Assembly (NCBI RefSeq): GCF_001565895.1
Contig: NZ_LSNE01000006.1
Span: 190,965 to 254,964, forward strand
Direction: 5' to 3'
Source of the DNA: Paraglaciecola hydrolytica
GTDB lineage: Bacteria; Pseudomonadota; Gammaproteobacteria; Enterobacterales; Alteromonadaceae
Length of the DNA stretch: 64,000 nucleotides
Position 1 is the first letter of the stretch. The number at the start of each line of letters is the position of its first letter. The position numbers and the translations under genes are program-made. The notes beneath the pieces are model-generated. The model saw nothing but the letters and a program-made list of their open reading frames with translations. It was not told the origin of the DNA and made no database searches. Of the stretch, positions 6,205 through 47,512 are shown piece after piece.

Positions 6205-6216
6205 GGAAAAGGATCC

Positions 6217-7056
6217 TCACAAACAAAGACTCAAACCTTCTGCTGCGGCAAACAAGACAAGTTTGGCATCCACGATGTCGATAATTCCCTTACAATGCTG
6301 CTCGATTTTTTCAATTTCTTCATCGGTGCGAATGTGATCATGGCTATATAGAGCCATTTGTTTAGCGCGACTAGCCATGGCGAGTTTAACGGCTTCTTCT
6401 GCATCAGAATGGCCCCAACCTCTTTTGTATTGCATGTCTTCCATCATATATTGTGCATCGTGAATTATTAGGTCGGCATCACGAGAAAACTCAACCCATT
6501 CTAAAAATTCAGTGGATTTTTTATAAGGTGGATACAATTCGTTGTCGGTGATGTAAACGACTTTTTTGCCGTTCTCTTCAATAGAAAAGGAACTGCCACA
6601 ACCTGGGTGATTGATGCGTAAACGGCATATGCGGGCACTGCCTAGTGTCCAAGTGTCTGCACCTTGAGGTCTAGCAACAATCTTAATATTTGCCTTGAGG
6701 GTGGTGTAATCAACAGGAAAGTAACTGGCGCCCATTTGCCTGAGGATGGCATCATCTTCTGCTAAGGTTGTTTGCCCTGGAGTGATAAAAATATTACGTT
6801 CAGGTTGATAAATTGGTGCAAAAAAAGGAAAGCCCTGAATATGATCCCAGTGGTTATGGGTTAATAAAAGGTGGATATCATTGGTTTTTTTAATTAGCTT
6901 TTGACCGAGATTTTTAATGCCGGTGCCGGCATCTAGAATAATATCGGTGCCATCATCTAGCTCAACATGCACACAGGCCGTATTACCGCCATATTTAACA
7001 AATTCTGCTCCCGGTGAAGGACAAGATCCGCGTACCCCATAAAAGGTTACTTGCAT
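6217..7056 (-). CDS. Metallo-beta-lactamase-fold hydrolase
   Basis: 279-residue MBL-fold metal-dependent hydrolase. The metal-binding signature THNHWDH is present, followed by a His in INHPGCGSS, an Asp in YITDNE and a late His pair in LYSHDH; the early LDAGTGIKNLG strand-loop is also typical. The N-terminus (VTFYGVRGSCPSPG) and the YGGNTACV segment resemble the PhnP/cyclic-phosphodiesterase-like side of the family, but the substrate cannot be assigned. First gene of a probable two-gene unit with the patatin gene. Confidence 0.87.
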   Translation of the reverse strand: MQVTFYGVRGSCPSPGAEFVKYGGNTACVHVELDDGTDIILDAGTGIKNLGQKLIKKTNDIHLLLTHNHWDHIQGFPFFAPIYQPERNIFITPGQTTLAEDDAILRQMGASYFPVDYTTLKANIKIVARPQGADTWTLGSARICRLRINHPGCGSSFSIEENGKKVVYITDNELYPPYKKSTEFLEWVEFSRDADLIIHDAQYMMEDMQYKRGWGHSDAEEAVKLAMASRAKQMALYSHDHIRTDEEIEKIEQHCKGIIDIVDAKLVLFAAAEGLSLCL

Positions 7057-7233
7057 AATATATCTCTCTCAATCCGGTGCATTGTTCTGGCGTTTACATC
7101 ATCCAACTGATTGTAAAACAGTAACATTTTTCGTGCTTGTTAAAAGTATAATATTTTACGTTTTGGTATTCTCTCGACGAATTTTAAAATACCTATTACT
7201 AATTTCACGTCGTTTACAATCAGTTAGTAAAGC

Positions 7234-7266
7234 CGCGGTTTTATGTTTGTGAGTAATAAAACCGCG
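7234..7266 (-). terminator. Hairpin downstream of proS
   Basis: A perfect 11 bp inverted repeat (CGCGGTTTTAT / ATAAAACCGCG) with an 11-nt loop lies just beyond the proS stop. The tract after the stem on the minus strand is not strongly T-rich, so it may end proS transcripts or protect the 3' end. Confidence 0.5.
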
Positions 7267-7273
7267 TATTGTA

Positions 7274-8989
7274 TTAAAGGTTTTGCATAAAGTTAACGAT
7301 AGTGTCGATGTCTAACATCTGTTTTTCACCATTACGACGATTTTTATATTCAACTTTTTTCTCATCCAGATTACGCTCACCAATCACGATAGTGTGTGGA
7401 ATACCGATGAGTTCCATGTCGTTAAACATCACCCCAGGGCGTTCTTTTCTGTCATCGAGTAATACATCGATTCCTACTAATTTTAACTCAGTGTAGAGTT
7501 TTTCGGCGACTTCTTGTATGCGTGGTGACTTATGCATATTCATCGGGATGATTGCCACTCTGAATGGAGCAATTGCATCTGGCCAGATAATGCCATTTTG
7601 ATCATGGTTTTGTTCGATGGCGGCTGCCACGATCCGTGAAACACCTATGCCATAACAACCCATAGTGAGGATTTGAAACTTACCGTTTTCATCCAATACA
7701 CCACAATTCATGGCCTGAGAATATTTATTTCCAAGTTGGAAAATGTGCCCGACTTCGATACCTCGTTTGATTTCTAAGGTACCTTTACCATCGGGTGACA
7801 AATCTCCCGCTACTACATTACGAATATCTGCAACAGTGATGGCGCCTACGTCACGTGACCAGTTAACTCCGGTGTAATGGAAGTCGGTTTGATTGGCACC
7901 ACAGACAAAATCGGCCAAGTGAGCAGCACTGCGATCAACAATAAGCGGAATAGTTAAACCTACTGGACCAATTGAGCCTATGGTGCAAGCAAGGGCTGCT
8001 TCAATTTGTTGTTCGGTGGCCATGGTCAGTGGGCTGAAAACGACAGCTTGTTTCTCGGCTTTGACTTCGTTTAACTGGTGGTCGCCGCGTAATACTAGGG
8101 CAACTAAACCTTGTTGACCTTTGTCATCAGGTGTGCCGAGTACAATGAGAGTTTTAACCGATTGCTCAGCTGGTAAATTAAGATAAGTAGAGACTTCTTC
8201 GATAGTACGTTGTTTAGGTGTGGCGACTTTTTGTAAGTCTTGCCCAGCCGCGGGGCGTTCACCCACTGGTGCTAGTGCTTCGGCCATTTCAATATTGGCG
8301 GCATAGTCAGAGGCATTACTAAAAGCGATATCATCTTCACCTGATTCAGCCAGTACATGGAACTCGTGGGAGCCGGTGCCACCTATTGAACCGTTGTCGG
8401 CAATCACTGGGCGATAATCTAAACCAATACGCTCAAACACCTGGCAATAGGCTTGATACATGTCCTGATAGGTCTTTTCTAGACTGCTTTGATCCATGTG
8501 GAAAGAGTAGGCATCTTTCATGGTAAATTCACGGCCACGCATTACGCCAAAACGTGGGCGCACTTCATCGCGGAATTTGGTTTGGATCTGATAAAGGTTT
8601 AAGGGTAATTGTTTGTAACTACTAACTTCGTTCTTTACTAAAGCGGTAACCACTTCTTCGTGAGTTGGGCCCAAGACAAAGTCACGTTTGTTACGGTCGT
8701 GAAAGCGCAGTAATTCTGGGCCATATTGCTCCCAACGCCCAGACTCTTGCCATAAGTCTGCAGGTTGTACTACGGGCATCAAAATTTCAATTGAGCCAGC
8801 TTTGTTCATTTCGTCGCGCACTATTTCAGCGACTTTATTGAGGACCCGTAAACCTGTTGGAAGCCAGTTATAGAGGCCTGCTGCCACCTTACGCACCATA
8901 CCGGCACGTAACATTAATTGATGGCTGATTACTTCAGCATCGGCTGGGGTTTCTTTTTGCGTCGATAATAAATATTGGCTAGTGCGCAT
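7274..8989 (-). CDS. proS: Prolyl-tRNA synthetase
   Basis: Class II aminoacyl-tRNA synthetase charging tRNA-Pro. 571 residues, the bacterial type with an editing domain (INS, about residues 225-400) between motifs 2 and 3. Motif 2 is seen in [17 protein letters not shown], motif 3 in [15 protein letters not shown], and the anticodon-binding domain is at the C-terminus. The substrate loop [10 protein letters not shown] is intact. Monocistronic by its spacing. Secure. Confidence 0.97.
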
Positions 8990-9095
8990 GTTGTACTAAG
9001 TCTCAGATAATAAATTGAAAAAACGGTGGCCATTCTATCAGTAGGCTAACTAGGGCTAAAGGCAAAAATGGTGGATAATGGCAATTATTAGCTGG

Positions 9096-9800
9096 TTAAT
9101 CATGTGGCTGAATGTCTGCTACCTGACAACAACCATCAATAACCTGCCATTGAATATTAAGATTATACAAACTCATGCCATATACTTTGTTTGGCTCTGA
9201 ATCTGCTCGATAAGCTGGACGAGGATCTTGAGCCAGTACTTCAGTGATTAAGCTAGTTAATTTAGGATATTGCTGCGCAAAATGCTGGACTTGTTTTAAG
9301 GCGCGTGGTGAAAACGTCACCGCCATCAATTCGGGCGAACTATGGGCAAATCCTCCTTTGGCATTTGGCAGTGCATCGGCATAGGGTACATAGGGTTTAA
9401 CATCTAAAATAGGTGTGCCATCAAGTAAATCCATGCCACGTACATGCAACTCGAGTTTGCCTTGCTGATGCACTACTTTAACAAACTCGACCACCGACAA
9501 CCCCATATTGTTTGGTCTAAAGGTACTGCGAGTAGCCAATACTCCTGTTTTTTTATTACCTCCCAAACGTGGCGGACGCACCAGTGGTGACCAACCTTGC
9601 TCAGTGGTTTGATGAAACTGAAAAATCAGCCATACATGACTGAACTCGTCGATACCACGCAAGATATTAGGATCGTTAAATTCAGGCAAAAATTGAATGA
9701 TACCCAGAGCACTATTAACTAAACCGGGCTGACGAGGGATAGCAAACTTTTGTTTGTAGGGGGTGTGGATAATACCAATAGGCTGCTGAACTAGACTCAT
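9096..9800 (-). CDS. trmO: tRNA (adenine(37)-N6)-methyltransferase TrmO
   Basis: S-adenosylmethionine-dependent methyltransferase of the TsaA/YaeB beta-barrel family, which in E. coli adds the N6-methyl group on t6A37 of tRNA-Thr. 234 residues, matching E. coli TrmO. Conserved blocks seen: IGIIHTPYKQKF, FSHVWLIFQFH, RPPRLGGNKKTGVLATRSTF, RPNNMGLSVV, LLDGTPILDVKPYVPYAD. Divergent from serB across a 169 bp gap. Confidence 0.93.
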   Translation of the reverse strand: MSLVQQPIGIIHTPYKQKFAIPRQPGLVNSALGIIQFLPEFNDPNILRGIDEFSHVWLIFQFHQTTEQGWSPLVRPPRLGGNKKTGVLATRSTFRPNNMGLSVVEFVKVVHQQGKLELHVRGMDLLDGTPILDVKPYVPYADALPNAKGGFAHSSPELMAVTFSPRALKQVQHFAQQYPKLTSLITEVLAQDPRPAYRADSEPNKVYGMSLYNLNIQWQVIDGCCQVADIQPHD

Positions 9801-9969
9801 CTGATGTATTTAAGATTTTAGTTTTTTACGGATAATTCACACTATGTTTACGCAGCAGATTATTTAATTCAACTTAAAACATCTAGATTGAAAATAAGAG
9901 TACTAAGCCATGCATAGAAATCAGTGATTCCTTTAGTTAACATGCAAACAATTTTATAAGCCAGTTTTA

Positions 9970-11001
9970 ATGTTAAAGGATCTCTGCTCAGTGTTTGAAT
10001 TATCCCTATCGAGTACTCAACTGCTCTCTGCTCATTTTTTACAAGATTTGGTCGAGCATAAACATTTAAATCAATTTGTGCTTAGCCAGCAAACTTTAAG
10101 CGCCACGGAGCAAACAACTAGCACCGAACATAAGCTACTGACATTTACCGAGGGGCTAAATTTGCAGCAGCTTTTAGCAGTTGAACAAGGCTTGCAAGAT
10201 TACTTAAGTATTCAATATTGGCAGATAGTACAAGTTGCCGGTGTTGCTGGTTTTGCCTGTGCTGCTAGGGTTAAGTTGTTAACTCAAAATGAGATTAAAA
10301 CTGAGCTTGAACTAGTTGCAAACCAGCTTTGCCTTGAGTTGTGTTTGCTTGCACAAGTGCCATCTTTAAACGAGCCGGGTTTATTGGTCATGGATATGGA
10401 TAGCACGGTAATTGCCTGTGAATGTATTGATGATATCGCGACGTTAGCCGGTGTTGGAGCAGAGGTTTCAGCTGTCACAGCACAGGCTATGCAGGGCAAA
10501 TTGGATTTTGCCCAGAGTTTACGAACTCGAGTGGGCTGTTTAACTAACGCTGATGAAGCCATTTTGCAAACTGTGCGGAACGCCTTACCCTTAATGACGG
10601 GCGTAACGAGCTTGGTCAGGGTATTAAAACAACATAACTGGAAGCTGGCGATTGCCTCAGGAGGCTTTACTTATTTTGCAGATTATTTGGCTGAGCGCCT
10701 GGATTTGGATGCCGCCGTAGCCAATAAATTGGAAATAGTTGATGGTAAGTTAACGGGTAAGGTTAATGGCGGCATAGTCGATGCACAAGTTAAAGCACAA
10801 ACCTTGTTAGCCCTAGCCGAGCAATGGGCTATTCCTCATCGCCAAACTATCGCCATGGGCGACGGTGCCAATGACTTAGTGATGATGGCGGCTGCCTCTT
10901 TGGGTGTTGCCTTACATGCAAAACCCATAGTACGTCAGCAAGCTGATATCTCGATTCGTCGTGGCGGTTTAGATGCCTTGTTATGGGTGTTGGCGGCTTA
11001 A
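9970..11001 (+). CDS. serB: Phosphoserine phosphatase
   Basis: Last step of serine biosynthesis: hydrolysis of O-phospho-L-serine. The HAD-superfamily domain has the nucleophile motif DMDST (about residue 141), Ser in IASGG (motif II), a Lys (motif III) and GDGANDLVMM (motif IV). The 343-residue length includes an N-terminal regulatory region of about 135 residues, longer than minimal SerB proteins but common in gammaproteobacteria. No partner gene shares its strand. Confidence 0.95.
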   Translation: MLKDLCSVFELSLSSTQLLSAHFLQDLVEHKHLNQFVLSQQTLSATEQTTSTEHKLLTFTEGLNLQQLLAVEQGLQDYLSIQYWQIVQVAGVAGFACAARVKLLTQNEIKTELELVANQLCLELCLLAQVPSLNEPGLLVMDMDSTVIACECIDDIATLAGVGAEVSAVTAQAMQGKLDFAQSLRTRVGCLTNADEAILQTVRNALPLMTGVTSLVRVLKQHNWKLAIASGGFTYFADYLAERLDLDAAVANKLEIVDGKLTGKVNGGIVDAQVKAQTLLALAEQWAIPHRQTIAMGDGANDLVMMAAASLGVALHAKPIVRQQADISIRRGGLDALLWVLAA

Positions 11002-11190
11002 AGCTGGAGAGAATAAAAGCAGTGAATATTACCTAGATACTAGTTGAGAGGATTTAACTACAAGTAACAAAAATGCAAATACGCTAAATAATCGAATTTT
11101 ATATGTAGATTAAGCCATTGAATTTAGCTCAAAATTTGTTAGATTGACTAATAATGCTACCTGCAAAAAAGATAATTAGGGACGGCTGTC

Positions 11191-11631
11191 ATGCAAGGTT
11201 TTTTTTACGGTTTTGATAAAGTTAAAGTCATTCTCGGCACCTCGGTTTTTTACTTAGCTGCTCTGGCAATTATTGTGATCAGTATTTTGTATAGTCAAAA
11301 TAAGCCCTTTGTTAAAATGAGCGACTTTTATAAGGTTAGTGAACTAAATCCAGTCGAAAATGTGCCAGTGCAAGCAAGCTATAGAAGCAATAGCTCGCCA
11401 CTAGGATATAGCACCACCATAGATCTCGGAGCTGAAATTAGCTTTGAAGTTGTTGCTGCTATAGTAGGTGTTCTAATGCGCTCTAAAGATTTAGAGCCAG
11501 TTAGTATGATATTAAACTGTTCAAAGGTAGATTGTAGAGTTGAGTTTACGACGGTGGACGATAATCATCGAAAACTCGCTAATAGGGCAAATGATCAATT
11601 TCAGAGTTATTTACCACTAACATCTAATTAG
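11191..11631 (+). CDS. Hypothetical membrane-anchored protein
   Basis: 146 residues, not recognised. A single hydrophobic segment (about residues 15-35, ILGTSVFYLAALAIIVISIL) should anchor it in the inner membrane, with the rest likely periplasmic. The soluble part has two nearby cysteines (LNCSKVDCRVEF) that could form a disulfide. AGGGACGG precedes the ATG at good spacing, and a strong terminator starts right at the stop codon, which supports a real, independently transcribed gene. Confidence 0.7.
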   Translation: MQGFFYGFDKVKVILGTSVFYLAALAIIVISILYSQNKPFVKMSDFYKVSELNPVENVPVQASYRSNSSPLGYSTTIDLGAEISFEVVAAIVGVLMRSKDLEPVSMILNCSKVDCRVEFTTVDDNHRKLANRANDQFQSYLPLTSN

Positions 11632-11633
11632 CA

Positions 11634-11661
11634 AAAAGCCGTTCATTTGAACGGCTTTTTT
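11634..11661 (+). terminator. Intrinsic terminator
   Basis: AAAGCCGTTCA-TT-TGAACGGCTTT stem followed by T residues, immediately after the stop of the membrane-anchored hypothetical gene. Confidence 0.9.
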
Positions 11662-11838
11662 CGACACGTTGCTCAGAAATTTTAATCAAATCGTGCATCC
11701 CAATCAGCCGTTATTTTTTGTTCTGATTAAACCTAGCGCTTGTTATTTTGCACCGGCCCATTTAAACATGACTTTGTCGGCTTAGCTACCAGCCGACACG
11801 GACCTACTTAGGTTTTGGCTGGCTCATACTTGACAATA

Positions 11839-14385
11839 TTAGGTTTTAAGTAATTGCTCGATACCTACTTTTTGCAATTTATGTACGGCAGGAAACTTAT
11901 GGTTATCGGCAATTTTTTCTTCACTAAACTCATAACGTCGCATGACTTCATCGGTGATATCTACCAAATCACCAACTCCTATGACATTCCATAACTTTTC
12001 TTCAAGCAATTTGGCTTTATGTAAAGCGTAGACACCCACGTAATTTAATTCAGATTGCATTTTATCAATATCAGGACGGCCGGTTTTGGCAATAAAAACT
12101 TTGAGCGCAATAAATTGGCCATGTTGCATGGCCTGGGAAATAAACTGGCGTCTCTTTTCGTGTTTGATAAATTGCTCTGATACTAGGCTTTTAATTGAAT
12201 CAGCCAATGCTTCTTTGCTTGGGTCAAAGGCAATAAAAACTTCACGCATTATCGGTTTATCATTGGCCTTTAAACTGTCCATCGCCTTTGGAATAAAATC
12301 GTGTTTACTCATGGCGTTACGATATAAGGGATATAAGTTAAGGTGACCTGTTTCGGTTTTGTGATGCAGCAGGTTAGTTAAGCGGTTTGTGGTAGACCAC
12401 GTAGCTGTGGCATCGGGCACATAACCTAGCTCATCTTTACGCAGAAAATAGGCAATATTGACAATATTTCTGGCGCAAATGTTACGCAGGGCTTCACCTA
12501 TACCTGGTACTTCCTCTTCGTCCCGATAGGATTTGAGTTTGCTGCGATTCGCTTTAATCAGTGCATCAAAAAACTGTTTGGCGGTGGTATTTTTATCATT
12601 TATTAAGGCGTGCATATGCAAGACCGTCTGGTCTTTGGATAAAAACCTAACAAAATAAGGCAGCTCTGCCAGCACATATTTAGTGGTTACTTTTTGCAAA
12701 CTTGGAAAACTAACAGTTACCAAACTGTCTGGAGGTAAGTGGCAACGTGTGGTGAGTTCAACGCGCAAACCCTGAGTAGAGATATCTTCTGTATGCCCTT
12801 CAAATATGATGTCATCCACGGTAACGATAATGGGGGTGCGCAACAAAAAACGTGTTTCGCGGCGCTGATTAAAATACTTAAAGCGGTATACGGTAACATT
12901 ATCAGGCAAACGATTACGCGGATGCCCAAATATTTTTAGCTGCAAAAGTTGATCACGTTTGATTTTTAGACGTTGGTAATATTCCGTGCTGATATCGTCG
13001 GTAATGTTAGTCAGCAAGGCAATGTGTGATAGGTTTTTTAATCTCGACATCAAACGTGGGGCTGGCTTTTGATTTTGCCTTTTTACACTCTCATTGACGC
13101 TATTGGCAATCGACAGTGGGCGGTAGCTTTGCTCTGGAATGATATCGGTTAATTGCAGTTTATAGATACGCCAACTGGCTTTACGTGAACCATAAGCCAA
13201 AAATAAATGTTTCAACTGAGGATGAGCGTCGAGTTCTTGAATGCTGGCGGAGTAAAAATATATTTTTTCTCCTTTGACGTGATTAAAGACATAAATAAAG
13301 GTTTCTTGTTGACCTTTGGGCAGAGATAAACAATGTTTCAGCCGCGATTCTGATAATAGATAACCAATTTTCAGATCCTGAATTTCATTTGCCCAATATT
13401 GAATTTCTTCACGGTTACAATCATTGCCAAGGGCATATTTGGCGTGCAACCCTTCACTATTATGTTCGATAAAAACCGGTATCGAGGTGAAATTAGGAAT
13501 GTAATATTGTTCGTAAGTTTTATTCTGAATGGCATTAAAGGTATTGTCTAAATTCACCTTATAACGACGTTTGTTACCATGGATAAAACTTTCGAAAAAT
13601 TTATCGAAGGTTGGATTAGGCACTTCCTGCATACGTTTTAGAGTTAAACGTTGATCGTCTTTAGTACGCTCAATATTGCCGACGCAGTAAACGATGCCCT
13701 GACGTTTATCTAAAGAATACTCTTTTTCTAAACCGCGAAATTGCACTGTCAGTTTTTCACCCGCTTTGACTAAGTGTTCTTTACTGACCTTGACTTTTAA
13801 ACCACTGACCGATACATCAATAGTAGTGGCTTGCATGCTTTTGTTCAATTCAGTAAACATTTCGACATTAACCGAAAAGTTCATGCGCTCTTCGGTACGT
13901 TGCGGAAAATTGCCAAACTCAACCAAGGGCGCTAAATGGTTTTCCTTTTTGATCGGTAGGGGAGTGGCTTGTGCTTTTTTCTTACGTGCAGCTTGTTGTT
14001 CTCTTTTATGCATTACCCGAAAATTGTTTTCGGTATTGGTCACTGCTTCATATACACCTATGGTGTATTGCCCAAAAATTCTGACTTGACGTTCGTAAGT
14101 CTCTATCGCCACGTCATCTAAATAATGTTCACGACTTTCGTGGGTAAAAATACGACATTTTCCATCCACCAGACCACGTAAATCAATTAAACGAATACAC
14201 GGCCGCGCCAAACGTTTGAGCTCCATTTTGAGCAAAAAACGCTTTTGCGCGGGCACGCTAGCCGCAACTTGCAATAAGACCTGATTAAATTCAGGCTCAT
14301 TGATCATTGGCTTAAGTGCTTCAATTATGTCGTGATATTCTTCTAAGTCTTGGCTCATAACATCAGTTTGGTGTATTGTTGGCAT
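11839..14385 (-). CDS. Large protein with two PilZ domains
   Basis: 848 residues with two PilZ-type c-di-GMP-binding signatures. The first has RTEER at 163-167 and DVSVSG at 190-195. The second has RRETR at 508-512 and DISTQG about 25 residues later. Both carry the RxxxR and DxSxxG residues that bind c-di-GMP in the family, so both are predicted competent. The N-terminus (1-150) is charged and helical; the linker regions and the last 200 residues are not recognised. There is no signal peptide or transmembrane segment, so it is predicted cytoplasmic. A second ATG ten codons in (MSQDLEEY) is an equally possible start, since neither has a clear ribosome site. Confidence 0.85.
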   Translation of the reverse strand: MPTIHQTDVMSQDLEEYHDIIEALKPMINEPEFNQVLLQVAASVPAQKRFLLKMELKRLARPCIRLIDLRGLVDGKCRIFTHESREHYLDDVAIETYERQVRIFGQYTIGVYEAVTNTENNFRVMHKREQQAARKKKAQATPLPIKKENHLAPLVEFGNFPQRTEERMNFSVNVEMFTELNKSMQATTIDVSVSGLKVKVSKEHLVKAGEKLTVQFRGLEKEYSLDKRQGIVYCVGNIERTKDDQRLTLKRMQEVPNPTFDKFFESFIHGNKRRYKVNLDNTFNAIQNKTYEQYYIPNFTSIPVFIEHNSEGLHAKYALGNDCNREEIQYWANEIQDLKIGYLLSESRLKHCLSLPKGQQETFIYVFNHVKGEKIYFYSASIQELDAHPQLKHLFLAYGSRKASWRIYKLQLTDIIPEQSYRPLSIANSVNESVKRQNQKPAPRLMSRLKNLSHIALLTNITDDISTEYYQRLKIKRDQLLQLKIFGHPRNRLPDNVTVYRFKYFNQRRETRFLLRTPIIVTVDDIIFEGHTEDISTQGLRVELTTRCHLPPDSLVTVSFPSLQKVTTKYVLAELPYFVRFLSKDQTVLHMHALINDKNTTAKQFFDALIKANRSKLKSYRDEEEVPGIGEALRNICARNIVNIAYFLRKDELGYVPDATATWSTTNRLTNLLHHKTETGHLNLYPLYRNAMSKHDFIPKAMDSLKANDKPIMREVFIAFDPSKEALADSIKSLVSEQFIKHEKRRQFISQAMQHGQFIALKVFIAKTGRPDIDKMQSELNYVGVYALHKAKLLEEKLWNVIGVGDLVDITDEVMRRYEFSEEKIADNHKFPAVHKLQKVGIEQLLKT

Positions 14386-14472
14386 AATCTGCTGTGTATT
14401 AAAGGCTTATCGGCAAGTTGACTAAATAGTTGATCTAGCTTGCAAATAACACTTTTATTACGATCTTTTATG

Positions 14473-14611
14473 TATACCCAAAATTATTGGAATTGCACGG
14501 CGGCGGCAATTGAATGAGACCCCGTGAACTTAGTTCACTAAGAGCTATGCCGTTACAAATCATGGCGAATGAGTGCAGCCAACAAACGTGCGGTTTCAAG
14601 GATGAAGGGTA
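14473..14611. repeat. Intergenic repeat of Alteromonadales type (TATACCC...GGGTA)
   Basis: A roughly 139 bp block begins TATACCCAAAATTATTGG and ends GGATGAAGGGTA, giving imperfect terminal inverted repeats. The core is GC-rich (GCACGGCGGCGGCAATTGAATGA) with a central dyad CTTAG-TTCA-CTAAG. From memory this layout matches an abundant non-coding intergenic repeat in Alteromonas, Shewanella and Colwellia-like genomes. Only one copy is in the window. It sits between the divergent PilZ gene and radA. Confidence 0.55.
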
Positions 14612-14671
14612 GAGATGTAAAATACGTCAACCTGCATACAACAATCAACCCATATTGAGTATCTAATTAAC

Positions 14672-16036
14672 ATGGCAAAACGTAAAACTTCTTTTGTTTG
14701 CTCTGATTGTGGTGCCGAATTTCCACGTTGGCAGGGGCAGTGTAGCGATTGTCAGGCTTGGAACACTATTACTGAATTTGTTATTTCCGCCACTAAGTCT
14801 GTAGTAAGTAGAACTGGGGGAGGTTATTCTGGGCAGACCTTAGCTCAAGTCGAAAACTTGCAAGATATTGATTTGCAAGCCTTACCACGTATTTCTTCGG
14901 GTTTTAAAGAGTTAGATAGAGTCTTAGGCGGAGGCATAGTACCGGGGAGCGCCATGTTGATTGGTGGCTCGCCAGGAGCGGGTAAAAGTACCTTGTTATT
15001 GCAAGTGATGTGTTTGATGGCCAGTGGTCGTAGCGCCTTGTATGTGACCGGCGAAGAATCTTTGCAACAAGTAGCTATGCGTGCACAACGTTTGGGCTTA
15101 GCCAGAGATAAATTAAAATTATTGGCTGAAACCAATATTGAGGTGATTTGCGAACTTGCTTTACAACACAAACCTGAAATTATGGTCATTGACTCCATTC
15201 AGGTGATGCAAGTCGCCGATGTACAGTCTGCACCTGGCAGTGTTTCACAAGTGCGTGAAAGTGCCGCCTATCTAACTCGTTTTGCTAAACAGCATCATAT
15301 TGCGATGTTTTTAGTAGGTCATGTAACCAAAGATGGCAGTTTAGCCGGCCCCAAAGTACTAGAACACTGTATTGACTGTTCGATGATGCTCGAAGGTGAA
15401 AGTGACAGTCGTTACCGCACTTTACGTAGTCAAAAAAACCGCTTTGGTGCAGTTAATGAGCTTGGCGTATTTGCCATGACAGAAAAAGGCTTGCGCGAAG
15501 TGAGTAACCCTTCAGCAATTTTTTTAAGCCGTGCTGATGAGCAATCTCCCGGCAGCATCGTTATGGTGGTTTGGGAAGGTACTCGACCTTTGTTAGTGGA
15601 AATTCAAGCGCTGGTGGATTATTCACAAATGGCTAATCCACGGCGTGTAGCAGTGGGTTTGGAGCAAAATCGTCTCGCTATGTTACTGGCGGTACTACAT
15701 CGTCATGGCAATGTGCAAATGAACGATCAAGATGTATTTGCCAATGTGGTTGGCGGCGTTAAAGTTACAGAAACCAGCGCAGACCTTGCACTGTTGTTAT
15801 CCATAGTATCAAGTTTCAGAAACAAGCCCTTAGATCGTGAACTGATTGCTTTTGGTGAAGTTGGACTAGCGGGAGAAATTCGCCCAGTACCCAATGGTTC
15901 GGAGCGCATTAGTGAAGCGGCCAAACACGGTTTTAAACGTGCCATCGTACCTAAAGCCAATGTACCTAAACAAAAAATCCCTGGGATAGACGTTGTGGGT
16001 GTTGCGCGTTTAAGTGAAGCTTTAGACGCTTTGTAG
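14672..16036 (+). CDS. radA: DNA repair protein RadA
   Basis: RecA-like ATPase that promotes branch migration of recombination intermediates. 454 residues. N-terminal zinc finger C-x2-C...C-x2-C (residues 9-29, CSDCG and CSDCQ), Walker A GGSPGAGKST (about residues 94-103), the RadA-specific KNRFG motif, and a C-terminal Lon-protease-like domain (GLAGEIRPVPNGSERISEA). Single gene divergent from the two-PilZ gene and convergent with the small PilZ gene. Confidence 0.97.
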   Translation: MAKRKTSFVCSDCGAEFPRWQGQCSDCQAWNTITEFVISATKSVVSRTGGGYSGQTLAQVENLQDIDLQALPRISSGFKELDRVLGGGIVPGSAMLIGGSPGAGKSTLLLQVMCLMASGRSALYVTGEESLQQVAMRAQRLGLARDKLKLLAETNIEVICELALQHKPEIMVIDSIQVMQVADVQSAPGSVSQVRESAAYLTRFAKQHHIAMFLVGHVTKDGSLAGPKVLEHCIDCSMMLEGESDSRYRTLRSQKNRFGAVNELGVFAMTEKGLREVSNPSAIFLSRADEQSPGSIVMVVWEGTRPLLVEIQALVDYSQMANPRRVAVGLEQNRLAMLLAVLHRHGNVQMNDQDVFANVVGGVKVTETSADLALLLSIVSSFRNKPLDRELIAFGEVGLAGEIRPVPNGSERISEAAKHGFKRAIVPKANVPKQKIPGIDVVGVARLSEALDAL

Positions 16037-16094
16037 TTTTTCTGCCTAAAAATGTTAGACGTGACTTATATGAGTACCTAAGTTAACCCTATGC

Positions 16095-16463
16095 TTAGGT
16101 TGATTGGTTCTGTTTAATTAAGGCTTCTAAATCGAGTTGTAAAAGAGACTCATCACTAAGATTAAGTTCTATTAAACGCCGTAATTCAGTGACACTATCA
16201 ATATCAATTAATTCGCACTGAAATCCCAAAAACTCCTCATTGGCATGGCAAATCTTACCTTGCATGTTAATCGCTTTATCTAGACCTTCTAAGTTGAAAT
16301 TCAGATCATATAAGGCAGCGGGGTCTAATACAAAATCCTCAGGAGCATCAAGCAAGGCGCCTTTAAGCGACAAGTCTAGTACCTCGGTTTTCCATGTTTT
16401 AGTTGCTGTACTTAGCTCAGCCTGTGTCGAAAAAACAACACGGTTGAAGTTTCTACGCTCCAT
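16095..16463 (-). CDS. Single PilZ-domain protein
   Basis: 122 residues forming little more than one PilZ domain, a c-di-GMP-binding adaptor. The binding residues are at the very N-terminus (ERRNFNR, giving RxxxR at 3-7) and in DLSLKG. Such stand-alone PilZ proteins usually act by binding a partner after c-di-GMP is bound; none is encoded next to it. It is convergent with radA, on the far side of which the large PilZ gene lies. Confidence 0.88.
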   Translation of the reverse strand: MERRNFNRVVFSTQAELSTATKTWKTEVLDLSLKGALLDAPEDFVLDPAALYDLNFNLEGLDKAINMQGKICHANEEFLGFQCELIDIDSVTELRRLIELNLSDESLLQLDLEALIKQNQST

Positions 16464-39958: not shown

Positions 39959-40079
39959 CCTTTTTGGATATTGACGAGTACGGTTAAACTAAGTTTTTGT
40001 CGTTTCGATTAAGCTTATCTTCAGTTAAGGTTCATGCTTTTAACATCACAATCTCCTACAAGTTGAAAAGGAGAGTGTG

Positions 40080-40829
40080 ATGAATAAAGTAGCCATCTTA
40101 AGTTTAGCCTGTGTATTTTTTAATCCCTTTGTTAGTGCCCAATCTATTAGTAGCAAAAACAGTGAGTGGTCAGCCAGCTCAGTTGAAACCCAAAATGGCA
40201 TTAGCAGCCAATCCATAACAAAAAACTCAGTCAACAAATCTGTGTTAGCCACTAGCATGAGCACGTCGGCAAGTAGTGGGCAGTCTAAGTCACAGACTTT
40301 ACATTCACAAAGTGCAATTCATCTGCAGCAGCGCCCTATGTTAACTAATCTAGACAATGAGTTTTGGATCTACGATGCGTGGGTGACCTTACGTAACGAT
40401 ATTGATTACGACGGTTATGCTTATCGATTCAGCTTAGAATTTGATGCGGATACTGTGTATGAACATGCAGAGGTATATGCACGTTTGTATTTGACTCGTG
40501 GTGAAGTTTTTAAGGAATATCATACGACCTCAGTATTTAGTATTTTTGGGGAAAACACGGATGATAGTTTAATAGTGGATAGTGAGTTACTAAACGGATT
40601 TCCCACGGGGGATTACGAAATTTTAATCGAACTTTATGATACTTATACTGACGAAGTGGTTGCGATATTGGATGGTTATAGTGATCCCGATTTGTACTTA
40701 ATAACCTTAGAAAGTAAAGATTATGAATATACTAAGCCGGTAGTGGTGGTGCATGAAGGAGGGAGTATAAGCTACTTAAGTTTACTACTATTGCCTATTC
40801 TCGCGTGGCGAAAAAAGTGGTTTAGTTAA
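40080..40829 (+). CDS. Choice-of-anchor H-like secreted protein with GlyGly-CTERM tail
   Basis: 249 residues. Signal peptide MNKVAILSLACVFFNPFVSA, then about 70 residues rich in Ser/Gln/Asn, a beta-rich domain (about 95-225; WIYDAWVTLRNDIDYDGYAY, YARLYLTRGEVF, GDYEILIELYDTYTDEV), and a tail GGSISYLSLLLLPILAW plus RKKW. The tail has the Gly-hydrophobic-basic layout of GlyGly-CTERM proteins, and the domain resembles the choice-of-anchor H group of Shewanella-type genomes. Function unknown. GTG at 40077 is also in frame, but ATG 40080 has GGAG 6 nt upstream. Confidence 0.78.
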   Translation: MNKVAILSLACVFFNPFVSAQSISSKNSEWSASSVETQNGISSQSITKNSVNKSVLATSMSTSASSGQSKSQTLHSQSAIHLQQRPMLTNLDNEFWIYDAWVTLRNDIDYDGYAYRFSLEFDADTVYEHAEVYARLYLTRGEVFKEYHTTSVFSIFGENTDDSLIVDSELLNGFPTGDYEILIELYDTYTDEVVAILDGYSDPDLYLITLESKDYEYTKPVVVVHEGGSISYLSLLLLPILAWRKKWFS

Positions 40830-41098: not shown

Positions 41099-41956
41099 TT
41101 AATAAAGTGAACCACTATTTACTATGGGTTGCACGTTTCTATCACCGCATAATACGACCAGTAAATTACTCACCATCATGGCTTTACGCTCTTCATCTAG
41201 GTCAACCACATTTTTTTCTTTCAGACGATCCAGTGCCATTTCTACCATGCCCACAGCACCTTCAACAATTTTACTGCGTGCAGCAATAATCGCAGTGGCT
41301 TGCTGACGTTGTAACATGGCGCTGGCGATTTCTTGTGCATAAGCCAAATGACTTATTCTGGCTTCATGTACAGTTAATCCCGCCTTACCTAAACGCTCCT
41401 GAATTTCTTTTTTGAGTATTTCGGAGATGTGCTGCGGATGACTACGTAGGGCTATATCCTGACTTTCATCATCTTGTGGATCATACGCATAACTGCTGGC
41501 CATATTACGCAGAGCCGATTCACTTTGAATGGTGACATAACTAACATAATCATCTACTTCAAACATCGCCTCGGCAGAGTCAGTAACCGACCACACTACT
41601 ATCGTTGCTATCTCGATGGGGTTGCCCAAGTTGTCGTTTACTTTAATTTTGGCCGATTCAAAATTGCGGATCCGTAACGAAACGGTTTTACGCATATAGA
41701 ATGGGATAGTCCAACGTAAACCATTACGTTTTTCGGTGCCCACATAACTACCAAACAGGGTCATTACTTTGGCTTGGTTGGGTTGCACCATAAAAAAGCC
41801 ACCCCAACACACCAGTACAATCAAAGAACCAATAATTGCCACAATAGTTAGGGTTTGTGTGAACAGCATAAAGCTAAAACTTAATTGCAGTAAGGGTAGT
41901 ATTACAAAAAAAGCTAAATAACCATTTATTGAAAAACCGTTTTTTTCAGTCAGCAT
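41099..41956 (-). CDS. SPFH/band-7 domain membrane protein
   Basis: 285 residues. Two N-terminal membrane segments (about 12-32 and 35-58), then an SPFH domain (about 60-215; VQPNQAKVMTLFGSYVGT, EIATIVVWSVTDSAEAMFEV) and a C-terminal helical part (EIASAMLQRQQATAIIAARSKIVEGA). SPFH proteins oligomerise on membranes and scaffold other proteins; the partner is not known. The first gene of a two-gene unit with the RHH protein. Two GTGATAT repeats lie just upstream of its ribosome site. Confidence 0.88.
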   Translation of the reverse strand: MLTEKNGFSINGYLAFFVILPLLQLSFSFMLFTQTLTIVAIIGSLIVLVCWGGFFMVQPNQAKVMTLFGSYVGTEKRNGLRWTIPFYMRKTVSLRIRNFESAKIKVNDNLGNPIEIATIVVWSVTDSAEAMFEVDDYVSYVTIQSESALRNMASSYAYDPQDDESQDIALRSHPQHISEILKKEIQERLGKAGLTVHEARISHLAYAQEIASAMLQRQQATAIIAARSKIVEGAVGMVEMALDRLKEKNVVDLDEERKAMMVSNLLVVLCGDRNVQPIVNSGSLY

Positions 41957-42430: not shown

Positions 42431-45400
42431 ATGAAACTTAAATATCCAGCGTTGCTGGCACTTTTTATGGTGCCTGTGACGCAAGCAAGTGTGTTTATCA
42501 ACGAAATACATTACGACAATATTGGTGGTGATGTAGGTGAAGCAATAGAGATTGCCGCGACTGCGGGTACTGATTTATCGGGCATGAGCTTGGTATTGTA
42601 CAATGGTAACGGTAACAAACCTTACGGTTCGACCATCTCTCTATCGGGAATAGTCGCTGACCAGCAAGATGGATTTGGCACAATCTCGATAAGTTTTCCT
42701 TCAAATGGGCTGCAAAATGGCGATCCGGATGGTTTAGCGTTGATTGATGCCTCGGGAAATGTCATTCAATTTTTGAGTTACGAAGGAACAATAACTGCAA
42801 CTGATGGGCCGGCATTAGGCCTGACCAGTGTTGATATTATGGTAGCTGAAAACAACGACACGACGGCTATTGGAACCTCTTTGCAATTAGTCGGTACTGG
42901 CTCGGCGTATGAAAACTTTAGCTGGGCTGCCAGCAGTACCAGTTCATTTGGTAGTGTTAATACTGGGCAAAGCTTTACTGCTGGAGGTGATGGCGGCGAT
43001 ACTGGTGGTGATACAGGAGATACCATCAGTGGCAGCGTATGTACTAATTGCCCTGATCTGCTCAAAGTCAAAGATGCCAGTACTTTTAGTGCTCTTGATT
43101 ATTATGCGCGCGTCCAAACTGAGATTGATTTTAACTCCAGTGCTGCAGCGATAAAGACAGCAATTAATACGGTTATTTCACAAGACATAGTACAACTTAC
43201 TTATGCCGAAGTATGGACTGCATTAACTTATACCGATGAAGATCCTGCCAATACTGACAATGTGATTTTATGGTATACCGCTCGTTCTCAAGCTAAATCT
43301 ACTAATGGTAGTGGCGCGGCATCGACTAATCCTGACAATTGGAATCGTGAACATTCATGGCCAAAAAGCCATGGTTTTCCAAATGAAGGTCAGACCGCTT
43401 ATTCAGATATTCATCACTTACGTCCTAGTGACATCAGTGTTAATAGCTCACGTGATAACTTAGACTTTGATAACAGTGATTCGCCGCTATCTGAAAGTCC
43501 GCTGAATAGTATCGATGGTGACTCGTTTGAACCTCGCGACGACATCAAAGGTGATGTAGCACGTATGATGTTTTATATGGACACTCGTTATGAAGGTGCA
43601 GGTTCGGATAGCGTTGAAGACTTAGTCTTAGTCAACCGTATAACCTCTTCATCTGAACCTAATCTTGGTAAGTTGTGTACCTTAATCGCCTGGCATAACG
43701 CAGATGCCGTGGATGCCTCTGAACAACGTCGCAACGACAGAATTTATGAGTTACAGGGCAACCGTAATCCTTTCATTGATAATCCATCATGGGTCTCTAC
43801 TTTATATCCAGCGGATTCTTGTGATTCTGCAGGTGGTGGCGATACGGGAGGCGGAGACACTGGTGGTGGCGATACTGGCGGTGGTGACACTGGTGGTGGT
43901 GAGACCAACGGCAGTGCTCAGTTGATATTGAGTGGGATGATCGATGGACCTTTAACTGGCGGTGTTCCTAAAGCAGTAGAAATCTATGTAGCTGACGATA
44001 TTGCAGACTTGAGTCAGTGTGGCTTGGGGTTGGCGACAAACGGTAATCCGGGCAATGGGCAGGATTTTACCTTCCCCGCGGGTTCTGCTAGTGCAGGCAG
44101 TTTTATTTATGTTGCGTCTGAAACAACGGGGTTCACAGCATTTTTTGGCTTTGCACCTGACTACACTAATGGTGTTGCCAATTTTAATGGTGATGATGTC
44201 ATGGAATTATACTGTGATGGTGAGGTGATTGACGTTTTTGGCGAGATGGGGGTAGATGGCAGCGATACACCTTGGGATTATTTGGATGGTTGGGCTTATC
44301 GTAATGCCGAAACTGGCCCAGACGGTTCTACCTTTGTATTAGCAAACTGGAGCTTTAGTGGTATCAATGCATTAGATAACGAAAGTGATAATGCCAATGC
44401 CGCCACGCCTTTCCCAACAGCCACATTCTTTGCTTTGACTCCAGAAATTTTTATTTCTGAATATGTAGAAGGCTCTTCCAACAATAAAGCTATTGAGTTG
44501 TATAACCCCGGTGTTGCTGCCATTGATTTGGCGGCAGGTAATTATGTATTAACACGCTCTGCTAATGGTGGCAGCAACGTAGCGGATATTATCCTGTCAG
44601 GGGTGATTGCTGGAAAAGGCACTTATGTTATTGCCAATAATCAATCAGCAGCGGCAATTTTGGATGTAAGTGATCAAATCAGCGGTACAATCTCACATAA
44701 TGGCAATGATGCTTACATCTTATTTAAAGATGGTGTGGCTATTGATTCCTTCGGACAAGCCGGTTTTGATCCTGGCACACAATGGGGCAGCGGCACTAGC
44801 TCTACAGTGGCTAACACCCTAGTCAGAAAAGCAGCAGTAAAAGTAGGTGACCCTATTTTTGACGATGTTTTTGATCCTGCCCTTGAGTGGGAAGGATTGG
44901 GCAAGGACGTGTTTAGTTCATTAGGCAGTCATAACAGCGGCGGTGATACTGACGGTGAAGTCGTTGAATTAGGCCAGTGTGCGGATCCTGCAACTTTAAT
45001 CAGTGCTATTCAAGGCAGTGGTTTAGTGTCTCCAGTTGTGGGTGAGACACACGTTGTTGAAGCCATTGTTAGTGCATCCTTTACCAATCTAAGTGGTTTC
45101 TTTGTACAAGAAGAAGCGGCAGATATGGATGCAGATAGTCAAACTTCAGAGGGTTTATTTGTTTATTACTCTGGAACGTTGCCAGCCGTTGGCACAGTTG
45201 TAAGGTTGATCGGAAAAGTTGAAGAGTTCTATGAAAAGACCCAATTAAACGTCACTGAAGCGCCTTTAACTTGCGGTACAGATGTAGTTGTTGCAACGTC
45301 ATTTAGTTTACCATTTGCTGATGCCTTAGTACCTGAAAGCTTGGAAGGTATGTTGGTAAGTTCGAGCAGTGAATTGGTGGTTACTGATAACTACTCATTG

Positions 45401-46882
45401 GGTAAATATGGTGAGGTTGCCTTAGCTTCTCAACGTTTGTTTGTACCTACTAATCTCTTTGTAGCTGGCAGCGCTGAAGCTATTGCCTTAGCGGCACAAA
45501 ATGCCTTAAGTAAAATCACTTTAGATGATGCTATGAATGGTACATATCCTGATCCTGTTATTTATCCAACAGGCAACTTGTCAGCCGCCAATACCTTACG
45601 AGGTGGTGATACGGTGAGCAGTTTGACAGGGATTATGGATTATAGTTTTAACTTGTATCGCGTGCTCCCAACCGAATCTCCAACCTTTGTAGCTAGTAAC
45701 CCAAGAACGGCAGAGCCTGATTTAACTTTGGGTAACCTTACAATTGCCAGTTTAAACGTACTGAACTTGTTTAATGGTGATGGATTAGGTGGTGGATTTC
45801 CAACTGCTCGTGGTGCAACTAATGCTGCTGAATTAGAACGCCAGATGACAAAAACTGTTGCAGCCTTAGCCGCCATGGATGCTGATATTGTTGGTTTAAT
45901 GGAAATTGAGAATGATGGCTTTGGTGTTAATAGTGCGATTGCACAATTAACTGACAGATTAAATGCCGAAGTAGGTGCTAATACCTATACCTTTGTTAAC
46001 GGTGGTGGGGTTATTGGTACTGATGAGATTAAAGTGGCACTACTTTATAAACCTGGCAAGGTTTCAACAGTAGGTAGCTACAAAATCCTCAATAGCAGCA
46101 ACTCTGTTAGTGACGGTCAAGGCCCCTTATTCGTTGATAGCAAAAATAGGCCTGCTTTTAATCAAAAATTTGCATTAGTAGAAAATGGACAGGAAATCGT
46201 GGTGAGTGTTAACCACTTGAAATCCAAGGGGTCTACCTGTGGTGCAGGAGATGATGATACAACGACGGGTCAAGGAAGCTGTAATCTAACCCGGACTCGG
46301 GCGGCACAAGCTTTAACGACTTTCTTAGCGCAAGAATATGCAGACACACCAACATTAATCATTGGTGACTTAAATGCTTATGCTCAGGAAGATCCTATCT
46401 TAAAAATCAAACAAGCGGGTTATACCGACTTAGCTAATTTGTTCCAAGGTGCAGATGCTTATTCTTATGCCTTTGGTGGTGAATATGGCTATTTGGATCA
46501 TGCCTTAGCCAATGATCTTTTGTTAGACAAAGTGGTTGATACGGTTGAGTGGCATATCAACGCAGATGAACCCATTGCCCTTGATTACAACATTGAGGAT
46601 AAATCCATACAGCAACAAGGTGATTATTATGCGCCCGATGCCTACCGCATGTCAGACCATGATCCTGTGGTGATTGCCATCGACTTAAGTGCAGAGACTA
46701 TCAAAGGTGATTGGGATGGTGACGGTGATGTGGACAGTAATGATGTGCGCGGATTAGTTTTAGCCATCCAACAACGTTTACCCATCGACATGAGTTTTGA
46801 TTTAAATAATGACGGTGTAATTAATATCCTTGATTCACGTGTAATGGCTACCTTGTGTACGCGTGCTCGTTGTGCGGTTTAA
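42431..46882 (+). CDS. Secreted double nuclease (endonuclease I + ExeM/NucH) with C-terminal dockerin
   Basis: 1483 residues. Signal peptide 1-19. A first lamin-tail-like domain (about 21-185; VFINEIHYDN) is followed by an endonuclease I domain (about 202-466) with NREH at 305-308 and DIHHLRPSD from 326. Next come a (GGGDT)5-type linker at 468-492, two more lamin-tail-like domains (from about 495 and 671) and an OB-fold-like region (from about 848). The endonuclease/exonuclease/phosphatase domain of ExeM/NucH type starts near 1101, with MEIEN at 1157, GDLN at 1312 and SDHD at 1408. The end (1425-1483) has two dockerin-type calcium loops: DWDGDGDVDSND at 1427-1438 and DLNNDGVINILD at 1457-1468. 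Both nuclease active sites look intact. Probably degrades extracellular DNA. AGGAGA site before the ATG; a cohesin-like PEP-CTERM gene follows 34 bp later. Confidence 0.9.
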   Translation: MKLKYPALLALFMVPVTQASVFINEIHYDNIGGDVGEAIEIAATAGTDLSGMSLVLYNGNGNKPYGSTISLSGIVADQQDGFGTISISFPSNGLQNGDPDGLALIDASGNVIQFLSYEGTITATDGPALGLTSVDIMVAENNDTTAIGTSLQLVGTGSAYENFSWAASSTSSFGSVNTGQSFTAGGDGGDTGGDTGDTISGSVCTNCPDLLKVKDASTFSALDYYARVQTEIDFNSSAAAIKTAINTVISQDIVQLTYAEVWTALTYTDEDPANTDNVILWYTARSQAKSTNGSGAASTNPDNWNREHSWPKSHGFPNEGQTAYSDIHHLRPSDISVNSSRDNLDFDNSDSPLSESPLNSIDGDSFEPRDDIKGDVARMMFYMDTRYEGAGSDSVEDLVLVNRITSSSEPNLGKLCTLIAWHNADAVDASEQRRNDRIYELQGNRNPFIDNPSWVSTLYPADSCDSAGGGDTGGGDTGGGDTGGGDTGGGETNGSAQLILSGMIDGPLTGGVPKAVEIYVADDIADLSQCGLGLATNGNPGNGQDFTFPAGSASAGSFIYVASETTGFTAFFGFAPDYTNGVANFNGDDVMELYCDGEVIDVFGEMGVDGSDTPWDYLDGWAYRNAETGPDGSTFVLANWSFSGINALDNESDNANAATPFPTATFFALTPEIFISEYVEGSSNNKAIELYNPGVAAIDLAAGNYVLTRSANGGSNVADIILSGVIAGKGTYVIANNQSAAAILDVSDQISGTISHNGNDAYILFKDGVAIDSFGQAGFDPGTQWGSGTSSTVANTLVRKAAVKVGDPIFDDVFDPALEWEGLGKDVFSSLGSHNSGGDTDGEVVELGQCADPATLISAIQGSGLVSPVVGETHVVEAIVSASFTNLSGFFVQEEAADMDADSQTSEGLFVYYSGTLPAVGTVVRLIGKVEEFYEKTQLNVTEAPLTCGTDVVVATSFSLPFADALVPESLEGMLVSSSSELVVTDNYSLGKYGEVALASQRLFVPTNLFVAGSAEAIALAAQNALSKITLDDAMNGTYPDPVIYPTGNLSAANTLRGGDTVSSLTGIMDYSFNLYRVLPTESPTFVASNPRTAEPDLTLGNLTIASLNVLNLFNGDGLGGGFPTARGATNAAELERQMTKTVAALAAMDADIVGLMEIENDGFGVNSAIAQLTDRLNAEVGANTYTFVNGGGVIGTDEIKVALLYKPGKVSTVGSYKILNSSNSVSDGQGPLFVDSKNRPAFNQKFALVENGQEIVVSVNHLKSKGSTCGAGDDDTTTGQGSCNLTRTRAAQALTTFLAQEYADTPTLIIGDLNAYAQEDPILKIKQAGYTDLANLFQGADAYSYAFGGEYGYLDHALANDLLLDKVVDTVEWHINADEPIALDYNIEDKSIQQQGDYYAPDAYRMSDHDPVVIAIDLSAETIKGDWDGDGDVDSNDVRGLVLAIQQRLPIDMSFDLNNDGVINILDSRVMATLCTRARCAV
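43832..43906 (+). repeat. 15 bp tandem repeats encoding a GGGDT linker
   Basis: Five 15 bp units code for Gly-Gly-Gly-Asp-Thr, the last as GGGET. The units differ at third codon positions, so the repeat is maintained at protein level. It forms a flexible acidic hinge between the two nuclease halves. A shorter GGDT stretch lies before the endonuclease I domain. Confidence 0.9.
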
Positions 46883-46916
46883 CTTTGAATATCAAACATT
46901 AGTTGTAGGAAATAAC

Positions 46917-47456
46917 ATGAAAAAATTAATCGTAGTTTTAGCTTTTTTTATTGGTTTTAATGCCAATGCTGGTTTAATCAATGTAGATATCAGTAACCCA
47001 ACAGTATCTGTTGGTGGAACTACCGAACTAAGTATTTTGGGGGCGGGTTTTGATCCCTTCGATACCTTTGAGTTTCAACTTGAGTTTGATACCAGTTTAT
47101 TTAGTATCGATTTGGTTTCGATGGTAAGTGATTTAGGTGATGCATCAGATTTCATTTTTGAAGTTACCGAACAAAGTTATGGAATAGCCTTGTCTTTTAT
47201 AAATTTTGACTTGTTCACTAGCAGCGAGTTTATCGCAGCAAAGATCAATTTAACTGCTATTGCTAAAGGTTCAACAAGTTTTAATTTAGCTAATGTGATA
47301 GTGGAAGATTTTTATGGCCAAGGTCCGATTGATTTTGACATTGATGGACAATTACCTGCTGGCGTAGACGTTACTGGAGCTGTTCCTGCTCCCGCAACAC
47401 TTGGTTTATTCGCAGTGGCATTGACTGCTTTTGCTGGATTTCGTCGTAAAGCTTAA
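46917..47456 (+). CDS. Cohesin-like protein with PEP-CTERM sorting signal
   Basis: 179 residues. Signal peptide MKKLIVVLAFFIGFNANA. The body (about 20-150) reads VDISNPTVSVGGTTELSI, FEFQLEFDTSLFSI, IALSFINFD and AKINLTAIAKGSTSFNL, the strand pattern of cohesin-like domains. The tail is a PEP-CTERM signal, with VPAPATLGLF for the usual VPEP, a hydrophobic helix and FRRKA. Exosortase-processed proteins of this class end at the cell surface. The frame opens 18 codons earlier, overlapping the nuclease gene, but ATG 46917 has AGGA 6 nt upstream. Placed directly behind a dockerin protein, it is the likely anchor for it. Cohesin assignment is by pattern only. Confidence 0.75.
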   Translation: MKKLIVVLAFFIGFNANAGLINVDISNPTVSVGGTTELSILGAGFDPFDTFEFQLEFDTSLFSIDLVSMVSDLGDASDFIFEVTEQSYGIALSFINFDLFTSSEFIAAKINLTAIAKGSTSFNLANVIVEDFYGQGPIDFDIDGQLPAGVDVTGAVPAPATLGLFAVALTAFAGFRRKA

Positions 47457-47477
47457 TCAGTGAATTGATGAGTTAGA

Positions 47478-47512
47478 AAAAGGCGGTTGATGCAAATCAA
47501 CCGCCTTTTTTA
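47478..47512 (+). terminator. Intrinsic terminator of the nuclease/cohesin unit
   Basis: AAAGGCGGTTGA-TGCAAA-TCAACCGCCTTT stem followed by T residues; A/T runs on both sides also suit the convergent acyl-CoA dehydrogenase gene. Confidence 0.92.

Follow-up and report, generated by a model that had tools for sequence, protein, structure and literature searches.

What would hold a large secreted nuclease near the cell when its C-terminus carries a dockerin? The question is raised by Paraglaciecola hydrolytica, in a 64,000-nucleotide stretch of DNA (the window; positions 190965-254964 of contig C6 in a source genome of 5.2 Mb), where the gene for a 1483-residue double nuclease is directly followed by a gene for a 179-residue protein consisting of a single cohesin and a PEP-CTERM tail. 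Cohesin and dockerin domains bind each other, and an initial annotation made from the sequence had read the two genes as a surface nuclease system. Our analysis indicates that they probably represent one instance of a two-part, cargo-independent enzyme-retention system, in which the enzyme bears the dockerin and an exosortase-sorted protein bears the single cohesin. The features concerned are the following, where ORF stands for open reading frame and pLDDT for predicted local distance difference test:

42431-46882 (+), secreted double nuclease with Endonuclease I, lamin-tail, and ExeM/NucH endonuclease domains and a dockerin end (ORF of 1483 amino acids, Pfam and NCBIfam profiles)
46694-46879 (+), C-terminal dockerin domain, residues 1422-1483 (alignments A2 and A8, PF00404, PDB dockerins by profile)
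46709-46744 (+), dockerin calcium loop 1, DWDGDGDVDSND, residue 1427 onward (pattern and conserved Asp columns)
46799-46834 (+), dockerin calcium loop 2, DLNNDGVINILD, residue 1457 onward (pattern and conserved columns)
46856-46873 (+), Cys-x4-Cys (CTRARC) at the dockerin C-terminus, putative disulfide (Cys invariant in A2 and A8)
46917-47456 (+), single-cohesin protein of 179 amino acids from the ATG, with signal peptide and PEP-CTERM tail (ORF, profiles, structure)
46971-47375 (+), cohesin beta-sandwich body (AlphaFold2 mean pLDDT 89.1, Foldseek)
47379-47450 (+), PEP-CTERM sorting signal made up of VPAP, a hydrophobic helix, and RRK (TIGR02595, over the cut-off)
47476-47511 (+), intrinsic terminator with a 16-bp stem and then a T run, ending the pair (-24.5 kcal/mol, z -6.7)

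The two calcium loops were located where the initial annotation had placed them, at residues 1427 and 1457. Both fit the pattern D-x-[DN]-x-D-G-x-x-[DN]-x-x-D at a distance of ~30 residues, as in type I dockerins, and the key Asp residues of the loops show little or no variation across the 43 rows of alignment A8. A profile built from these rows found solved dockerins at the top of the PDB (2mte, 1daq, and 2y3n; E 3e-7 to 6e-7) and also matched calmodulin-like EF-hands, from ~3e-6. The window dockerin domain had no match in NCBIfam, where two enzyme models were matched by 7 and 4 of the 43 rows. The second loop is followed by Cys-x4-Cys, usually CTRxRC, with both Cys present in 19 of 19 rows of A2 and 43 of 43 of A8; they may form a disulfide. 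The initial annotation had not mentioned this motif. The PF00404 match on the window dockerin (profile positions 1-50 of 57) stops before this motif. The invariance in A8 is partly selected, since this alignment omits L069, L071, and L077, where the dockerin is not at the frame end and was not recovered. The Cys pair is missing at the end of at least nine dockerin genes that adjoin a cohesin gene (L165, L170, L171, L173, L175, L177, L178, L179, and L182).

We regard the 179-residue protein as a cohesin. Single-sequence searches do not settle this, and a PDB search with the window protein matched no cohesin; the assignment is made because other members, profile, and fold agree. Modeled by AlphaFold2 with the rows of aligned members, the protein reached a pLDDT of 89.1 and a predicted template modelling score (pTM) of 0.74. 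Foldseek returned 65 PDB matches at E≤0.001; every one of the best 50 is an entry for a cohesin, a scaffoldin, or a cohesin-dockerin pair, with E values down to 4e-7 and 9-19% identity in sequence. The template modelling scores are moderate: they are ~0.5-0.6 when taken by query, and by target they reach 0.77 at most. The title of one entry, 3kcp, names only "multimodular components", and its chain B is the cohesin region according to profile search. By sequence, a 46-row cohesin profile reaches solved cohesins in the PDB (3l8q, E 1.1e-10). The cohesin-like body suggested earlier was found by structure search. In NCBIfam the cohesin family matched PEP-CTERM models, the match on the window protein covering the tail alone (residues 151-178), and PEP-CTERM was matched in 44 of 51 aligned members. 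On the window protein, TIGR02595 scored 18.7 bits (cut-off 16) and PF07589 of Pfam 19.9 bits (cut-off 20.7). The PEP-CTERM tail read from the sequence is in this way confirmed by TIGR02595, and the signal peptide read with it was judged by eye, as was that at the N-terminus of the nuclease. Concerning the alignments, one seed row of A3 (L001) was picked for its dockerin neighbour, whereas the other seed rows were recovered because they resemble the window protein; the loci that went into A7 and A8 are paired ones.

The two ORFs lie 34 bp apart on the forward strand, as described in the initial annotation, and the single terminator that it had drawn behind the pair is there as well, in the form of the 16-bp stem at 47476-47511; a simple consensus terminator scan did not report it. 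Throughout the source genome, all four dockerin genes found adjoin a cohesin-like gene, which lies downstream in three cases and upstream in one (contig C15). The C15 cohesin-like protein is not among the TIGR02595 matches; its tail appears similar by eye. Adjacency of PEP-CTERM genes in general was considered and rejected as an account of the pairing, only 3 of 31 PEP-CTERM matches in the source genome being located beside a dockerin gene.

A similarity search with the window cohesin gave matches in 15 of 22 genomes of the genus, and a dockerin frame lies immediately upstream in 18 of the 21 cohesin-like loci L008-L028, the exceptions being L018 and L028, which are one broken gene, and L020, which is at a contig end. 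No frame encoding a dockerin enzyme accompanies the broken cohesin-like gene (L018/L028, G008 contig C85) in the DNA fetched around it. Among 196 genomes of the family, Alteromonadaceae, a dockerin was matched in 105 and a cohesin in 75; the two occur together in 72 genomes vs 40 expected (Fisher p ~1e-23), and the other three cohesin-bearing genomes, in which no dockerin was matched, are G060, G119, and G147. Homologues of the two genes, whose adjacency the initial annotation had made a measure of its proposal, are neighbours in 120 of 122 cases when counted from the cohesin-like hits in these 75 genomes. Specifically, 89 hits follow a listed dockerin and share its strand, with the domain ends 68-965 bp apart. 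Five neighbour a dockerin in other arrangements; four of them were confirmed in fetched DNA, one weakly (dockerin E 8e-3), and the fifth, on contig C10 of G160, is known from match coordinates alone. Re-examination of the remaining 28 in fetched DNA revealed a dockerin neighbour in 26 (weakest E 7e-4), and the two left without are in G060 (L176) and G147 (L180, a broken fragment). With this frequency of pairing, chance adjacency of cohesin and dockerin genes can be rejected.

Pairing was also counted from the dockerin side. Family dockerins occur in at least 150 places, and among the 150 matches listed, to which these counts refer, 93 are paired with a listed cohesin and 57 are not. Nine of the latter belong to clusters or pairs with a known cohesin; the other 48 were re-examined in fetched DNA, and a cohesin was found beside 24. 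At seven of 11 named loci, the flanking DNA that was fetched contains a cohesin.

The association extends beyond the family. In a class sample of 369 genomes, the dockerin profile matched 21, the cohesin profile 17, and both matched 11 (Fisher p 1e-11 for co-occurrence). In the 10 both-domain genomes besides the source genome, dockerin and cohesin are encoded on one strand, 74-1573 bp apart; 8 of the 11 both-domain genomes are outside the family, all 8 with the domains within 1.6 kb. Both gene orders are seen in the class. The cohesin gene precedes that of the enzyme in G273 and G509, where the dockerin is near the start of the enzyme. In G290 the pair is separated by an extra small frame, the tail of which resembles PEP-CTERM by eye, and in G285 the cohesin is part of a 462-residue protein without such a tail. 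Cohesin-like domains in large proteins were also seen in two class members (L148 and L150), the genomes of which had no dockerin match at the threshold used.

The enzymes that bear the dockerin are diverse, as observed in a full-length scan of 17 dockerin proteins. Nucleases are represented by the window protein and L089, which has lamin-tail and Exo_endo_phos domains and no cohesin neighbour. The others are porphyranase-type proteins (L100, L105, L106, and L111), peptidases of the S8 (L096), M4 (L102), and M43 (L114) types, a calcineurin-like phosphoesterase (L101), five BNR_4 proteins (four in L103, and L108), an F5/8-type protein (L113), and a BACON protein (L107). The pair is cargo-independent and not specific to nucleases. 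A nuclease-specific system, as the initial annotation had it, is not borne out and was rejected, the cargo including proteases, porphyranases, a phosphoesterase, and others. There is mostly one enzyme per cohesin; at some loci two or four dockerin enzymes accompany one cohesin, which may then serve several enzymes. In P. mesophila (L096), one cohesin is flanked by an unrelated nuclease and a subtilase, whose dockerins are 84% identical to each other and 52% and 58% identical to the window dockerin. At L103 (positions 2961-16163, G192 contig C9), a single cohesin is found amid four dockerin-bearing BNR_4 enzymes, possibly a small multi-enzyme assembly. A locus of the same kind, L104, has one cohesin and two dockerin genes.

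The cohesin is linked to exosortase. The source genome, in addition to the PEP-CTERM tail, encodes an exosortase (match at E 1.4e-64), and an exosortase is present in 102 of 105 dockerin-bearing family genomes vs 48 of 91 without a dockerin. None of the three dockerin genomes lacking one (G038, G096, and G200) has a cohesin match. Sorting of the cohesin by exosortase would follow from what is known of the PEP-CTERM family and is supported by this co-occurrence. The mechanism that we propose is as follows. Nuclease and cohesin would both be exported via their signal peptides. A type-I-like dockerin with two calcium loops, here ending in C-x4-C, would replace the C-terminal anchor of the enzyme itself, and the neighbouring gene would supply a single-cohesin protein ending in PEP-CTERM, to be processed and delivered to the outside by the exosortase of the genome. 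In the periplasm or outside, the calcium-loaded dockerin would dock into the cohesin; calcium-dependent docking is expected because of the two domain families and their adjacency. Docking would thereby keep the enzyme from being lost, retaining it either on the cell surface or within the exopolysaccharide matrix.

The surface, on which the initial annotation had the nuclease held by a protein clasp, is one of two possible destinations. PEP-CTERM proteins may, according to the available text of PMC9850573, end up in the exopolysaccharide matrix, which is the other. It is accordingly a real possibility, if one that we rate somewhat below even, that the pair binds as proposed and the cohesin, once cleaved by exosortase, joins or mixes with exopolysaccharide, so that the enzymes decorate slime or flocs and not the cell surface. 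Of the 75 family genomes with a cohesin, 74 encode an exosortase (the exception being G119), which is in favor of this variant of the retention system.

A periplasmic escort was considered as well, in which the cohesin would bind its partner only inside the periplasm, as a chaperone that helps a large calcium-rich enzyme to be exported but does not anchor it. One small partner gene, nearly always adjacent to that of a large exported enzyme, speaks for this explanation. However, the partner has a sorting signal that such a chaperone would not need, and at some loci one cohesin is common to several enzymes. We regard it as unlikely.

Several observations weigh against retention by a docked pair. 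PF00404 remains under its cut-off of 22.9 bits on the window nuclease, with 12.8 bits for the whole protein and 19.9 for the isolated domain; in the PF00404 check that the initial annotation had proposed, all 19 aligned rows including that of the window protein match at E≤1, and some relatives exceed the cut-off (e.g., 28.8, 25.0, and 24.1 bits). In the corresponding check with PF00963, the Pfam scan gave no match on the 179-residue window protein, and 31 of 51 aligned members, a set including the window protein, match at E≤1 (best 1.7e-7). For 24 of the 150 dockerin matches listed, all of them from the 48 re-examined, no cohesin could be recognised within ~5 kb, two of these being broken frames (L216 and L231), and 4 of the 11 named loci have none in their flanks (L089, L093, L094, and L099). 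In one family genome, G029, the dockerin is matched five times and an exosortase is encoded, with zero cohesin matches. Across the class sample, no cohesin was matched in 10 of the 21 genomes that have a dockerin, nor a dockerin in 6 of the 17 that have a cohesin. Dockerins without a cohesin imply that they use distant or unrecognised sockets, or that they sometimes serve another role. Four dockerin genes of G029 (L187, L190, L196, and L219) have no recognisable cohesin nearby in this exosortase-encoding genome.

An AlphaFold2 model of tethered dockerin and cohesin predicted both domains well and did not fix their relative position (pTM 0.56). It was made on L008, a naturally in-frame relative read through the stops between the genes, using 12 paired and 22 single-domain rows, and we take it neither as support nor as refutation. 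Dockerin and cohesin distances are correlated over 54 pairs (r 0.45, 0 of 5000 permutations), also when loci of unrelated cargo are compared (r 0.42, 1 of 5000 permutations), 3 of 57 pairs (L069, L071, and L077) being dropped. Linkage and shared descent alone could yield such a correlation, and we therefore treat it as weak evidence. The cohesin-less dockerins and the unconfident docking model would both fit a situation where the genes are moved and duplicated as a unit without binding, the cohesin recognizing a polysaccharide or another protein and the dockerin having another partner. We find this improbable, as the genes stay linked when the cargo is unrelated, occur in either order, and are neighbours beyond the family too, and as cohesins and dockerins are known binding partners. 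A true cellulosome is rejected, since the four cohesin-like matches of the source genome are four separate open frames of 194-221 amino acids and none is a multi-cohesin protein.

The retention system proposed here shares with the cellulosomes of Clostridia (type I/II) the cohesin fold, a PF00404-type dockerin, and enzymes that bear the dockerin, mostly at the C-terminus. It differs in having small proteins that each contain one cohesin and an exosortase signal, cargo beyond plant cell-wall enzymes, and a dockerin often extended by C-x4-C. A 2009 review by Peer and others may list some of these modules. Anchoring and single-cohesin proteins of cellulosome bacteria likewise combine a cohesin with a sorting signal or membrane helix, but those in the accessible part of PMC11557425 are of LPxTG, LysM, and transmembrane-helix types; that part has 0 occurrences of proteobacteria, pseudomonadota, gram-negative, or alteromonad, and no one-to-one pairing with an enzyme gene was seen in it. 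ExeM of Shewanella has the same ExeM/NucH catalytic module and a lamin-tail domain, whereas the window nuclease has a dockerin in place of GlyGly-CTERM and an added Endonuclease I domain (PMC6085458, in part). The sorting of PepA, in connection with flocs, involves the same kind of tail and an exosortase in the genome; here, in contrast, the sorted protein is a cohesin encoded beside a dockerin enzyme (PMC9850573, in part). Methane-oxidising archaea with archaeosortases have non-cellulosomal cohesins and dockerins alongside exosortase-like enzymes, but the accessible portion of PMC5244752 gives domain counts, and neither gene pairs nor sorting-tagged single cohesins were seen there. The same paper, of 2017, calls the function of cohesins and dockerins outside the cellulosome unknown. 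In a literature search with most subscription papers outside its scope, no paper joined dockerin or cohesin with PEP-CTERM, or dockerin with Paraglaciecola, and for dockerin or cohesin together with exosortase only this archaeal work was found, as far as its accessible portion goes. The recurrence of the gene pair with many other secreted enzymes in relatives suggests a little-known mode of enzyme retention by plug and socket.

The source genome may contain at least two classes of pairs, judged from sequence identities. The pairs on contigs C6 and C5 have dockerins 63% and cohesins 37% identical, those on C18 and C15 dockerins 46% and cohesins 31%, and cross-comparisons between the two groups gave 29-35% for dockerins and 20-26% for cohesins. 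The classes, C6 with C5 and C18 with C15, may be orthogonal within one genome. The hosts here are Gram-negative aerobes. With moderate confidence we extend the proposal to a general plug-and-socket display of Gram-negative marine bacteria, where unrelated enzymes with interchangeable dockerins would use their own or shared exosortase-sorted single-cohesin sockets of at least two possibly orthogonal classes, and where the placement of an enzyme could be rewired by swapping a 60-residue tag. Cohesins and dockerins would thereby acquire a widespread and directly testable role outside cellulosomes, as exosortase-sorted sockets for secreted enzymes. If true, this would explain the retention of large nucleases, proteases, and polysaccharide-degrading enzymes in marine bacteria, tie the PEP-CTERM system to cargo, and yield new binding pairs, perhaps orthogonal ones, with which enzymes could be displayed.

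The nuclease itself has two catalytic domains:

43148-43786 (+), Endonuclease I domain, residues 240-452 (PF04231, E 1.5e-41)
45056-46687 (+), ExeM/NucH endonuclease domain, residues 876-1419 (NF033681, 618.6 bits vs a cut-off of 300)

The catalytic-type motif REHSWP is located at residue 306 inside the Endonuclease I domain, and SDHDPV, GDLNAY, and other motifs of this type were also read off the protein. Within the source genome NF033681 is matched by this nuclease alone. The score for the full-length ExeM GlyGly-CTERM model NF033680 is 407 bits vs the 1300 needed, the best stretch stopping at model position 722 of 884, which agrees with the earlier reading that the GlyGly-CTERM tail of known ExeM is absent. 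Upstream of and divergent from the nuclease gene lies a gene for a membrane protein (41099-41956, reverse strand) with weak HflC/HflK matches. Further upstream, at 40077-40829 on the forward strand, a choice-of-anchor H family protein (NF038116, 6.7e-40) ends in a GlyGly-CTERM signal (TIGR03501, 3.4e-5), so that a rhombosortase-type signal is present near the dockerin nuclease.

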